NCBI GenBank assembly: GCA_024542975.1
Contig: JAMXCZ010000004.1
Coordinates: forward strand, 1 to 57,025
DNA: 57,025 nucleotides
Direction: 5' to 3'
From: Candidatus Omnitrophota bacterium
GTDB taxonomy: Bacteria; Omnitrophota; Gorgyraeia; JABMRN01; RBG-13-46-9
Shown piece by piece: positions 2,543 to 6,955 of the stretch. Under the pieces are notes generated by a model. That model did no database searches and was not told the DNA's origin. It was given only the letters and a program-made list of their open reading frames with translations. Both the position numbers and the translations under genes were made by a program. The number at the start of each line of letters is the position of its first letter. The first letter of the stretch is position 1.

Positions 2543-3046
2543 TTATGTGAAAAATCTCTTTATCTCGGGCCTCGTAAAAATAATAAGGCAGAGTAGCGGG
2601 ATCGCCGCAAACCACAATATATCATCGAAATATATTTCCGCAAGCAAATTCTTCGCTATCCAGACGGGATTCAGTATAGTTGCCACAAGCATCCATGACG
2701 ACACAAATATCAATTCAAGGGCACAAACAGTTATAAGTAAGATCCTTGCCCATTTCTGCCTGAATATAATACCCATTCCGATCAATATGAATAAAGGCGA
2801 TACTATCGCGGAGACGGCAGGGCGAACCCAAATTTGCATCGTGATCGAAAGCTGCTTGGCCAAGGTATCGTATTTCGCGTAGTTTATAGGCTCAAGGTAA
2901 GGCGATCTCAAATACTGCCCGATGAATAGGGTCCGATAAGTGCAAGGAAGCAGAAAAACCCATCCGAATACATCTATTAGCACATTCCTTTTTTGCATAT
3001 TCCTATTATAATGGTGAAATATAGATAAGTAAAGCCCTCTTTCCAT
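2543..3046 (-). CDS. Hypothetical integral membrane protein
   Basis: 167 aa ORF with several hydrophobic segments, consistent with gene order. Confidence 0.6.
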   Translation of the reverse strand: MERGLYLSIFHHYNRNMQKRNVLIDVFGWVFLLPCTYRTLFIGQYLRSPYLEPINYAKYDTLAKQLSITMQIWVRPAVSAIVSPLFILIGMGIIFRQKWARILLITVCALELIFVSSWMLVATILNPVWIAKNLLAEIYFDDILWFAAIPLLCLIIFTRPEIKRFFT

Positions 3047-3082
3047 CGAACTATAATATTTAAAGAGTTACGTCACACCCTT

Positions 3083-3247
3083 CCGGTCCGGCAGGGAAGC
3101 CGGTACCTGGCGCGCGAATTTTGGCTTCAGCTAACCCATCCAGGAGAATACACAAAAATAGGAAACCCTGTATGATTCTCCTGTCTGGGTGGATCTCGAG
3201 GTAAAATTTTCGCAATGCGCCAAGTACCGGCTTCCCTGCCGGACCGG
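3083..3247. repeat. Long imperfect palindrome A (~165 nt hairpin element)
   Basis: Outer arms ccggtccggcagggaagccggtacctggcgc / gcgccaagtaccggcttccctgccggaccgg; inner stem ccaggagaat / attctcctg; apical loop contains aggaaaccctgta. Confidence 0.85.
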
Positions 3248-3264
3248 AGCGGAGTGCACAGTCG

Positions 3265-3437
3265 CTGCGCGCCCCGGTAAGGGTGTGCCTCCGGGGTGCA
3301 TTGCAAAAATTCCGGCCGAAGATCCACTCTGACAGGAGAAATGTATAGGGTTTCCTTATTTCGGTTTTCTCCTGTCAGAGTTAGCTGAGGCCGGAATTTG
3401 CTGCACCCCGGAGGCATACCCTTACCGGGGCGCGCAG
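3265..3437. repeat. Long imperfect palindrome B (~173 nt hairpin element, inverted homologue of A)
   Basis: Outer arms gcgcgccccggtaagggtgtgcctccggggtgc / gcaccccggaggcatacccttaccggggcgcgc; inner tctgacaggagaa / ttctcctgtcaga; loop tagggtttcct. Confidence 0.85.
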
Positions 3438-3550
3438 GCAGGATGTAACGCGGTATCCAAAGTATTGCAAAAGAGCCCCTTTTTGGTGTTGAACAAGGGA
3501 TATTACGTGATATAATGTGTGGCGAAGAATAAAAGGGGGCAAATGGTATT

Positions 3551-4300
3551 ATGAATAACATAAAGTTGGTGCTTTTGCGGCACGGTGAGAGTATATGGAA
3601 CAGGGAAAACAGGTTCACCGGATGGACGGACGTTGACCTCTCTCAGAAAGGCATAAAGGAAGCCGGGGAATCGGCGGAAGTTCTTAAGAAGGAAGGTTAT
3701 GCATTCGACATTGCCTTTACATCCGTATTAAAAAGGGCAATACGAACGCTTTGGATCGTAACGGATAAGATGGATTTGATGTGGATACCGGTTTACCGCT
3801 CGTGGCGGCTTAACGAAAAACATTATGGTGCTCTACAGGGGCTCAACAAATCGGAGACAGCCAAAAAATACGGGAACGAACAAGTGCTCTTATGGAGAAG
3901 GGGTTACGACATCCAGCCTCCTGTGCTGGACAAAAAAGACAAGCGCCACCCAGCGCATGAGGCAATATACAAAGATCTCGATAAAAAATACATTCCCGCA
4001 ACCGAAAGCCTGAAGGATACGGTGGCGCGCTTTATGCCGTACTGGCATAAAACAATCGTATCCGTGTTAAAATCCGGGAAAAAAGTGCTGATTTCCGCAC
4101 ACGGAAACAGCCTGAGGGCGCTTGTAAAACACCTGGACGGCGTCTCGGACGAGGCCATCATAAAATTAAACATCCCCACAGGCATACCCCTCGTATATGA
4201 GCTCAACCAAAACCTAAAAGCGCTCAAGCACTATTACCTGGGCGACCCAGAAAAAGTAAAGCAAGCCATGAAAAGCGTAGCCGACCAAGGCAAGGCATAG
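3551..4300 (+). CDS. gpmA: 2,3-bisphosphoglycerate-dependent phosphoglycerate mutase
   Basis: [63 protein letters not shown]. Confidence 0.95.
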
Positions 4301-4337
4301 GGACGGGGCATTTCGTGAACTCTGGCCTGTCCCTTTC

Positions 4338-5105
4338 TTAGAGGAGGTCAATGTCGGTGCGTTTGATCCAGCCTTGTTTGCCATCCTGACGCCTTATTTT
4401 TACCCAGTCTTTTTTGGAGGCTGTTACCGTGATGGGTTCGCCTTCGTTCAGGGTAAAAAAAGTGGTTCCGCCTATTGAGGGCTCGAATTTGGAGTCCGAG
4501 CGCTCTACGACACAAACAGCTTCTTTTTCCAGAATTTCCTTCTTGTATTTTATGGCAAACAAAGAAACGGAGATAATCAAAACCGCGAAAAGCGCTGAAT
4601 TTACATAAAGGTAAACTTTCCCAGGTCCGGTTTTCGTTATAGCCAGTATAACCAGAAGCGCAAGCGTAAAATACAAGATCATGAAGACAAAGGTAATACT
4701 ATCCAGGCTAAAAGAATCCGCAAGCGCAAAAAAGAGCCGCGCATACCAGTTTCTCCCGAGCGTTACCCGGCCGTTTTTTACGAGGGAACGCGCGTAATTT
4801 AAATTTGCCTTTAGATCCGCTTCCTGCGGCATGAGCCTTGCGGCGCGCAAATAATTGAGGATTGCCCGCCCCAGTTCGCCGTGTTTGAAATAAGCATTCC
4901 CGAGATTATAATAAAACGGCCCGCTTTCATATCCCATGCTAAGAACCTTTTCATATTCGGCAATCGCCTCCTCGAATTTCTCTTCGCTATAACGGGCATT
5001 TCCCTCGAGGATCAAAAGGCGCGCAGTGTCTTTCGTAGCACAATAAGCCGGCGCGGCAAAGGTAAGTATTAAAAATAAAGAGATTACATATTTTCTAACC
5101 TTCAT
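4338..5105 (-). CDS. BatE-like protein: TPR repeats and C-terminal SH3 domain
   Basis: Signal peptide, TPR (ARYSEEKFEEAIAEYEKVL..YYNLGNAYFKHGELGRAILNY), SH3-like C-terminus WVKIRRQDGKQGWIKRTDIDLL; position in Bat operon. Confidence 0.8.
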   Translation of the reverse strand: MKVRKYVISLFLILTFAAPAYCATKDTARLLILEGNARYSEEKFEEAIAEYEKVLSMGYESGPFYYNLGNAYFKHGELGRAILNYLRAARLMPQEADLKANLNYARSLVKNGRVTLGRNWYARLFFALADSFSLDSITFVFMILYFTLALLVILAITKTGPGKVYLYVNSALFAVLIISVSLFAIKYKKEILEKEAVCVVERSDSKFEPSIGGTTFFTLNEGEPITVTASKKDWVKIRRQDGKQGWIKRTDIDLL

Positions 5106-6955
5106 ATCTTCGCCCTTTCCAGTTTATCGATAACCCCTTCGAGAAGCGTAAGAGTCCGCGACATATCCTCTTTTGTTATGGACGACTGCGCATAACGGGC
5201 CGTATCACAATTCCCGAAACATTCTTTTAAACTGTCGATTATACCGGAATCAATATTGTAACCCCGAAGCGCCTCTACGACATTTGAGGTTATGCCGGCG
5301 GTGGGTAAATGGAATTTATCGCCCAAATACTCCTGAAGTGTTTTGAAGACAGCGTCAAAAAATTGCTGCGAGTCTCCGGCGCTCAAAAATTGACGTGCCC
5401 TCTTAAGGTTTCGCCCTGCCTTCCGCGGCGCGGCAAGCCGCCTTGCGTAGGGTATGTCGCGCTCGAGGCGCTCTTTTCTTCTTTGGAATACAATCGTAAA
5501 AATAACGCAAAGTATGGGAATAAATTGAAGCGCGATAAATAATTTATTTCTGCATAAAAACGCGCCTCTTTTTTTAAGGAGCCCGGGTGAGTCCTTTATG
5601 TAGATTATATCTTTCCCGAAAATTTCCCGAGCGCGCGCCGCCCCGGCAGGGCCCTCGGGCGTTTCAAAGATTATGAGCTCCTCACCCTTCGGAAGCGGGT
5701 TTACCTTTATCGGCATGGGCCCTCTTGTAATGCTTTTGTATTTGCCGGATGAGGTATCGAAAAAGCTAAAGGTAACCGCGGGAATCTCTTTTACGTTTAC
5801 GGTTTTGGGGATAATAACCTGCTCAAATACTTTCCCTGTCTCATCCTGTTTGACATCCGGGTCGTATATTTTAAAATCGCCATCGGCGCGAAGAGCGGGA
5901 TTCTTTACGGTATTGAAATTACCTTCCCCCGCGATAACTAGTTTAAGCGTTATCGGGTCTCCGACCTTTACCTCTTTGGGGCTTGCTTCCAGGTAAAACT
6001 GATAGTTGCCGAGCGCGCCCGTAAAGTCATTCGGGACAAATTCAATCGGCAATTCCGCTACTGTGACAGGAACGCTCTCCGACTTTAAATTCAAAGGATA
6101 TTTCTCATAGCCGCCGCCAAAGAAACTGTCAAAAGCGCCCGGTCCGAAAAAGTCATCGTCGCCAAAAATCGAAGAATGCCGCCTGTTTCGCGTTTTTCTT
6201 CTCAAAAGCAAACTGCACTTTAATTCAGCCGGCCCCAGCGTAAGTTCTCCCGGACGATTCCCGAATGCATTAGTGTTAAATTCGATAACGTCGTAGGGTA
6301 TGCCGTTTAGAATTTCCTTGTATTGCCTCGGCTTCTCGTATTCGTCTATCGAAAATTTCCGGTGCGCCAGCATGGGAGGGTAAATATCCTTTATCGCAAG
6401 CTTATTTACGTAGAGTTTGACCGTAACGGGAATGACTTCATTCACGTAGGCCTTTTTTTTACCCGCTTCCAGCACAAGGAAAGCTTTATCTCCGAGATCC
6501 CGAACAGTGCTACCGTAACTCTCTTTGGTTCCGGGCGCGGGCGCGCTTACCGGCCCGCGAACAACCGTTATGGGTATGGGGTTTGACTCATAGGTCCTGC
6601 CGTTATAATAAACGGACATCGGCGGCACACTAAACTCCCCTGCCTCAATAGGGATCAAGACATACATATGCGTAATCGACCTAGTTGCCCTTCCGTTTAT
6701 GATCGACATCTTAAGAGACGGCCCGAAATAACGCCAGTTAAAACCGTGAATATCCGGCAGGTCTATGCGGTTTATGCTCTGAGTGCCATAAAAGGTGAGG
6801 TTAAGGCTAACTGTCGAGTTAAGCGAGACCTTGTTTTTGTCGACAGTAACTTCAAACCGTATATCTCTTGCAAATGCCGAAACGGTAAAGTTTGAAAGTA
6901 AAAGTACTATTAAACAAAAAATTATTTTTCTATTTGGGGCCATCTCTCTTACCAA
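5102..6955 (-). CDS. BatD family protein
   Basis: Signal peptide, beta-rich extracytoplasmic region (RDIRFEVTVDKNKVSLNSTVSLNLTF), TM segment, cytoplasmic tail; operon context. Confidence 0.8.
   Translation of the reverse strand: MVREMAPNRKIIFCLIVLLLSNFTVSAFARDIRFEVTVDKNKVSLNSTVSLNLTFYGTQSINRIDLPDIHGFNWRYFGPSLKMSIINGRATRSITHMYVLIPIEAGEFSVPPMSVYYNGRTYESNPIPITVVRGPVSAPAPGTKESYGSTVRDLGDKAFLVLEAGKKKAYVNEVIPVTVKLYVNKLAIKDIYPPMLAHRKFSIDEYEKPRQYKEILNGIPYDVIEFNTNAFGNRPGELTLGPAELKCSLLLRRKTRNRRHSSIFGDDDFFGPGAFDSFFGGGYEKYPLNLKSESVPVTVAELPIEFVPNDFTGALGNYQFYLEASPKEVKVGDPITLKLVIAGEGNFNTVKNPALRADGDFKIYDPDVKQDETGKVFEQVIIPKTVNVKEIPAVTFSFFDTSSGKYKSITRGPMPIKVNPLPKGEELIIFETPEGPAGAARAREIFGKDIIYIKDSPGLLKKRGAFLCRNKLFIALQFIPILCVIFTIVFQRRKERLERDIPYARRLAAPRKAGRNLKRARQFLSAGDSQQFFDAVFKTLQEYLGDKFHLPTAGITSNVVEALRGYNIDSGIIDSLKECFGNCDTARYAQSSITKEDMSRTLTLLEGVIDKLERAKI

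Follow-up and report, generated by a model that had tools for sequence, protein, structure and literature searches.

A proposed new family of promoter-targeting MITEs in an Omnitrophota genome

Two oppositely oriented hairpins in a 57,025-nt stretch of Omnitrophota DNA (the whole of which is here called the window) are read as the interior of a MITE that belongs to a new promoter-targeting family. In the full reading, to which we assign a probability of about 0.77, the element is moved by a DDE transposase acting in trans, inferred to be of the IS1202 type, it inserts upstream of sigma70 promoters, and the hairpins are its cargo or filler. We describe the MITE as promoter-targeting because three independent measurements agree, namely its ends, its target-site duplications and its distance from promoters. 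Copies, ends, duplications, orientation and distance were all observed directly. The strongest signal was found in the flanks, where a predicted promoter stands at a fixed distance from the element, and this signal was absent from the first-pass annotation of the sequence.

Architecture of the element in the window

Comparison of copies placed both hairpins, A and B, inside a single non-coding element of 418 bp at 3052..3469 (no strand assigned), of which each makes up one inner half. The first-pass annotation had treated A and B as separate elements, a division that did not hold, as both lie inside one unit between terminal repeats. These bounding repeats are imperfect and read TRTAATAYTTTGAA...GTTACRTC. 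The left repeat, TATAATATTTAAAGAGTTACGTCACACC (3052..3079, + strand), was defined from the aligned left ends of 28 copies, and its motif also occurs in other genomes of the class. The right repeat, GGATGTAACGCGGTATCCAAAGTATTGCA (3441..3469, - strand), is an inverted imperfect copy of the left one according to the left/right alignment; the terminal inverted repeats align as TGTAATA-TTTGAA..GTTACGTC against TGTAATACTTTGAATGCCGCGTTACATC. The ends may also be given as TGTAATATTTGAA (left) and TTCAAARTATTACA (right), and across all copies the left ends have TRTAATATTTGAANAGTTRCGTCACACC and the right ends GGATGTAACGCGGCATYCAAAGTATTACA. The outermost bases are TGT and ACA, with TAT in place of TGT at the left end of some copies.

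Hairpin A (3074..3256, + strand) has outer arms at 3074-3113 and 3217-3256 and a conserved core at 3110-3220 that is read on the - strand. Hairpin B (3262..3440, + strand) is an inverted, diverged copy of A with outer arms at 3265-3300 and 3402-3437 and its conserved core at 3296-3405. The pairing and opposite orientation claimed earlier are real: the outer arms are 90% complementary in A and 97% in B, and the inverted A/B pair 3155-3221 / 3295-3361 matches at 75%. The folding energy of 3060-3460 was -266.5 kcal/mol compared with -139.4 for shuffled sequences (z -20.7). As the annotation had stated, a search for a terminator-like T-tract found none at this element. Its failure to recognise a known family was also borne out, as there was no Rfam match at the gathering score and the only hits were two miRNA models far below their cut-offs.

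The window copy has outward predicted sigma70-like promoters on both flanks. On the left, TTTACT-17-TATAAT (3005..3033, - strand) has its -35 box 18 bp off the left end and points outward to the gene at 2543-3046; on the right, TTGAAC-16-TATAAT (3489..3516, + strand), its -35 box 19 bp off the right end, likewise points outward, to the gene at 3551-4300. This copy lacks a recognisable target-site duplication; two copies that recombined, or a joint made during assembly, might account for this.

Copies and target-site duplications in the source genome

The source genome assembly (1.55 Mb, 110 contigs, 92% complete) is fragmented. In it we could recognise 28 left ends and about 19 right ends, along with 24 hairpin cores of full length. 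Many contigs stop within copies, as expected for a dispersed repeat. The further copies that the first-pass annotation had made a check of its reading are present, about 30 of them, dispersed over this genome. The element is short, lacks a transposase gene and has many dispersed copies, which are the features of a MITE; the earlier statement that it is not a plain IS stood in so far as no transposase gene is carried. Deletions have shortened several copies: in C61 (96 bp) and C49 (171 bp) the hairpin core is gone and both ends remain, C84 lacks hairpin A, and C45 lacks the core of hairpin B. The copy in C94 is interrupted by an IS481-type insertion sequence.

Some loci hold more than the MITE. 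A relic in C108 (about 355-470) has an IS1202-like end, TGTCAAGCCAAAATATAGAAATGTCC, at its start and a MITE right end at its finish. In C27 (near 4100-4400) and C63 (near 5700-5950) alike, truncated MITE copies have another palindromic repeat, TCTTCCARGCGAAGTTTTAGT.AAAAGCCTTG.ATGC, after them. Searches for the hairpin element in plasmids and phages gave no match, and pattern scans of IMG/VR gave none either. A pattern scan of GTDB with the hairpin core gave eight scattered matches in unrelated phyla, which we judged to be due to chance.

Clear target-site duplications of 14-15 bp were detected in four insertions. The repeats were TAAAAAATGGCGGGG/TAAAAGATGGCGGGG in C49 (14/15 matching), ATACTGTGGCACTGT/ATACTGCGGCACTGT in C61 (13-14 of 14-15), CATTGTGCGATTCA across the contig break C24/C41 (14/14) and ATTCTCTTCAACAG/ATTCTCTTCAATAG across the break C73/C58 (13/14). 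These four pairs scored 11-14, and the best among 560 null pairs scored about 5. Two further insertions were weaker, C78/C68 with 12/15 matching, which is level with a null score of 5-6, and C84 with 11/15. No duplication was seen in the window copy or in those of C5, C99 and C45. The common duplications also indicate that C24 and C41, and likewise C73 and C58, are chromosomal neighbours joined via a MITE copy. Among the options offered by the annotation (structured ncRNA, single-stranded DNA site or mobile hairpin), the mobile hairpin is the right one, as shown by the terminal repeats, the 14-15 bp duplications and the roughly 30 copies, and the functional RNA is not supported.

Predicted promoters at a fixed distance from the left end

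For 21 of the 28 left ends, the -35 box of the best outward predicted sigma70-like promoter is exactly 18 or 19 bp away. Shuffled flanks gave a mean of 2.2 of 28 and a maximum of 7, even for a wider range of 17-20 bp, and the mean promoter score was 8.6 compared with 6.65 in the shuffles. Promoters reading inward, toward the element, showed no distance peak. It should be noted that all promoters are predictions from sequence. The main ORF points outward in 23 of 27 left flanks, with its start mostly within 130 bp, and the targets therefore appear to be ordinary gene promoters. A right end facing a promoter at 18-19 bp was seen in few copies (the window copy, C103, the end of C41 and a weak site in C94); as right ends seldom do so, insertion is oriented.

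Relatives in other genomes of the class

The covariance search that had been proposed for extending the family, made with a model of the hairpin core, recovered nothing in the 245 other genomes of the class. The left-end motif, on the other hand, was found in ten other genomes of the class, most of them from one other taxonomic family. Duplications were present here as well, AAACTTAGAAGATGG twice (15/15), TAATGTTTAAATGTC twice (15/15) and TAATTACTATAAAT/TAGTTACTATAAAT (13/14), and the -35 box stood at 18-19 bp for 9 of the 18 ends tested (shuffles: mean 0.8, maximum 4).

Apart from the ends, the interiors of these relatives have zero sequence in common with the window element. The longer ones are nested palindromes (z -11 to -30), a layout lacking in two short ones of about 80 bp. 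Ends and palindromic layout are kept while the interiors are unrelated, so the loops are not what persists across genomes. In four of the loci (L212, L215, L216 and L217) nested palindromic modules, e.g. GCGAGCGGGCACGGTG and AAAATTTT..CGCTGGG..AAAATTTTGCGTCC, are shuffled between copies. At another locus (L230, contig C64 of genome G131) an IS1202-like end, TGTCAAGCACATTTAGAAATGT, adjoins a MITE left end on its left side, and this IS1202-like end is 16 bp from a TTGACG box. None of 17 loci in other genomes held an autonomous element with the ends of the MITE.

Covariation of the hairpins

The covariation for which the annotation had asked was detected. In an alignment of 17 hairpin cores with 29 pairs, 9 pairs had changes on both sides; these cores are paralogues, so that changes inherited within a subfamily are counted many times. 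Paired cells made up 97.5%, compared with 24-49% after sliding the partners, and cells with both-sided changes numbered 52, compared with 18.8 in shuffles and 0-8 when slid. The annotation had taken covarying stems as the hallmark of a selected RNA or single-stranded DNA fold, and here the observation stood and the conclusion did not. In a palindrome, template switching from one arm to the other converts mismatches into matches with no selection at work, and paired changes would result. Covariation alone is no proof of a selected fold because the relatives keep the ends and layout but not the interior sequence, because core-less deletion derivatives exist, and because template switching would also yield paired changes. 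The unpaired loops GATCCAC, GTTAGCTGA and AGRGT.TCC are invariant among the copies of the source genome, and template switching would not account for them; conservation of the paired hairpins within this genome is not accounted for by transposition alone.

IS1202-type elements of the phylum and the transposase

The IS1202 family has TGT..ACA ends and a TnsB-like transposase; its short-duplication ISAjo2 group targets dif sites in a fixed orientation, and for its long-duplication group no target is reported (PMC10132070). The ISNCY_2 model NF033594, run against 384 genomes of the phylum, matched in 99 of them, 33 above the curated cut-off. Their identity as IS1202 was seen from tblastn matches to records annotated ISEsa1, ISLad2, ISRel26 and ISKpn21. 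The ends could be resolved for 24 elements (L157-L206), and any duplications detected measured 15-17 bp and were perfect in most cases.

In 23 of these 24 elements the -35 hexamer of a predicted promoter lies 14-17 bp from one element end, at the far edge of the duplication (shuffled flanks: mean 0.66, maximum 4). The group with its right end facing the promoter has the -35 at 16 bp in nearly all cases, and the group with its left end facing the promoter has it at 15-16 bp. One of the groups has TTGACA, read outward, at the end of the element itself. We know of no earlier report of this promoter rule, and the open-access literature searched contained none. Among four plasmid-borne IS1202-type elements, two had 5-bp duplications and dif-like flanks as published, a Vibrio copy had a duplication of about 16-20 bp and no clear promoter, and the ends of one were not resolvable. 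With no clear promoter case among these four, the IS1202 promoter rule is shown for this phylum only. Many small phage-like records of Vibrio cyclitrophicus (PQ189311-PQ189386) have a fragment of an IS1202-type transposase at the extreme end of the record.

Neither an IS1202-type transposase gene nor an autonomous partner with the MITE's ends was found in the assembled source genome. The sole rve-domain protein there is the 395-aa transposase of the IS481-type element at 2440-3738 of C94, which sits within hairpin B of that copy, in its left arm. As an autonomous partner this IS481 element was rejected, its ends being unlike those of the MITE and its position being within a copy. The best local alignment of MITE ends with IS1202 ends was not significant, and the idea that the MITE is part of IS1202 itself was dropped on account of the dissimilar terminal repeats. 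A spacer of 3-4 bp separates duplication and -35 box for the MITE and none does so for the IS1202 elements (18-19 compared with about 16 bp). We nevertheless suggest that the MITE is probably mobilised by an IS1202-like transposase; the IS1202 (ISNCY_2, TnsB-like) type is inferred because the phylum's IS1202 elements have TGT..ACA ends, duplications of 15-17 bp and a near-identical promoter rule.

Proposed mechanism and alternative explanations

In the mechanism we propose, the MITE would be a non-autonomous element with imperfect terminal inverted repeats of about 28 bp and of the TGT..ACA type, and a DDE transposase supplied in trans would insert it just upstream of sigma70 promoters. The two cuts, staggered by 14-15 bp, would be made about 18-19 bp and about 4 bp before the -35 box, and in most insertions the left end would be the one toward the promoter. 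Targeting would be achieved by the transposase, which reads the promoter DNA or the bound RNA polymerase, and the hairpins would be MITE cargo or structural filler, not a host RNA. As a generalisation, which we favour with some reserve, long-duplication IS1202-type transposases and similar MITEs may pick their targets by recognising the sigma70 promoter (as DNA or with holoenzyme bound), with the duplication ending at the -35 box or a few bases before it.

A MITE of a prokaryotic Mutator-type transposase, p-MULT (TnGBS/ISLre2 or ISKra4), would have a like target, 15-17 bp upstream of the -35 box and oriented by unequal ends (PMC3942029). For no other group has insertion at a set distance from sigmaA promoters, on their upstream side, been published. 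The p-MULT duplications of 8-9 bp and conserved terminal cytosine, however, differ from the 14-15 bp and TGT/TAT..ACA of the MITE, and PF00872 (Mutator-type) had no match in the source genome while its control matched; PF06782 had none there, but its control gave none either. We consider this origin improbable. We give equally little credence to a fixed distance produced by selection, where insertions elsewhere were lost and the element now serves the host upstream of promoters, as a regulatory or insulating module. The compact genome, with gene starts in 23 of the 27 left flanks, and the paired stems that were kept speak in its favour. Avoidance of damage would, however, give a wide range of distances and not a two-base peak, core-less derivatives stand at an equal distance with duplications, and different elements, those of the IS1202 type, obey a like rule.

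The covarying stems, with 9 both-sided pairs, the invariant unpaired loops and the z of -20.7 would fit a structured non-coding RNA or a single-stranded DNA site for recombination or replication. Against it, the palindromic interiors of relatives with like ends are unrelated, the position upstream of promoters puts the element outside the neighbouring transcript, and there was no match in Rfam, in the 245 other genomes of the class (covariance model), or in plasmids and phages, so this explanation is very improbable. Least credible of all is a palindromic repeat of the REP/BIME kind that a RAYT (Y1 transposase) mobilises. Such repeats would match the inverted hairpin pairs, the extragenic positions and the many copies, but terminal inverted repeats and 14-15 bp duplications are foreign to Y1 transposition, and Y1_Tnp was absent from the source genome while the control matched in five genomes. 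Within the assembled 92% of this genome a RAYT/REP origin is refuted, as no Y1 transposase is present.

Significance and comparison with known systems

Precise promoter-targeted transposition in bacteria has so far been described for one transposase superfamily, p-MULT. The MITE displays p-MULT-like behaviour from another kind of element, with twice the duplication and different ends. If the proposed reading is true, bacteria would have invented promoter-guided transposition a second time and independently, with a TnsB-like transposase that needs no accessory targeting protein, and the long-duplication IS1202 group would gain its target. Whether a TnsB-like transposase recognises RNA polymerase at promoters, as has been proposed for ISAjo2 and XerC at dif, becomes a testable question. 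The family also shows how about 30 large palindromes can accumulate in a genome without damage to genes. In practical terms, the elements mark real promoters in the genomes of uncultured bacteria, and promoter-directed insertion would be useful as a tool.

The REP/BIME repeats moved by RAYT occur, as here, as inverted palindrome pairs between genes, but the MITE differs in its terminal repeats and target duplications and in a genome without Y1 transposase. Correia elements, QMITE and MITEAba12 are likewise short, non-coding and intergenic, with terminal repeats and strong hairpin folding (PMC10969869). Those bacterial MITEs that affect promoters carry the promoter internally, whereas the end of the present element stands at a fixed distance from a promoter that belongs to the host DNA. 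TnGBS, ISLre2 and ISKra4 (p-MULT) share the oriented insertion upstream of promoters, there 15-17 bp from sigmaA promoters (PMC3942029), and differ in their 8-9 bp duplications and their terminal cytosine; their Mutator-type transposase had no match here with PF00872, whose control worked, or with PF06782, whose control did not. The long-duplication subgroup of IS1202 (IS1202, ISTde1, ISSeq2; NF033594) resembles the MITE in its TGT..ACA ends, its fixed orientation beside a defined site and its imperfect terminal repeats, which measure about 24-28 bp, the subgroup's own being put at about 24-26 bp. The target duplication is long in both, at 14-15 bp in the MITE, compared with the subgroup's criterion of >15 bp and the 15-17 bp of the phylum's IS1202-type elements. 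Unlike IS1202, the MITE is gene-less, with a dissimilar terminal repeat sequence and a -35 spacing of 18-19 bp instead of about 16. With the subgroup's relatives in the phylum it shares the fixed distance to predicted sigma70 promoters.
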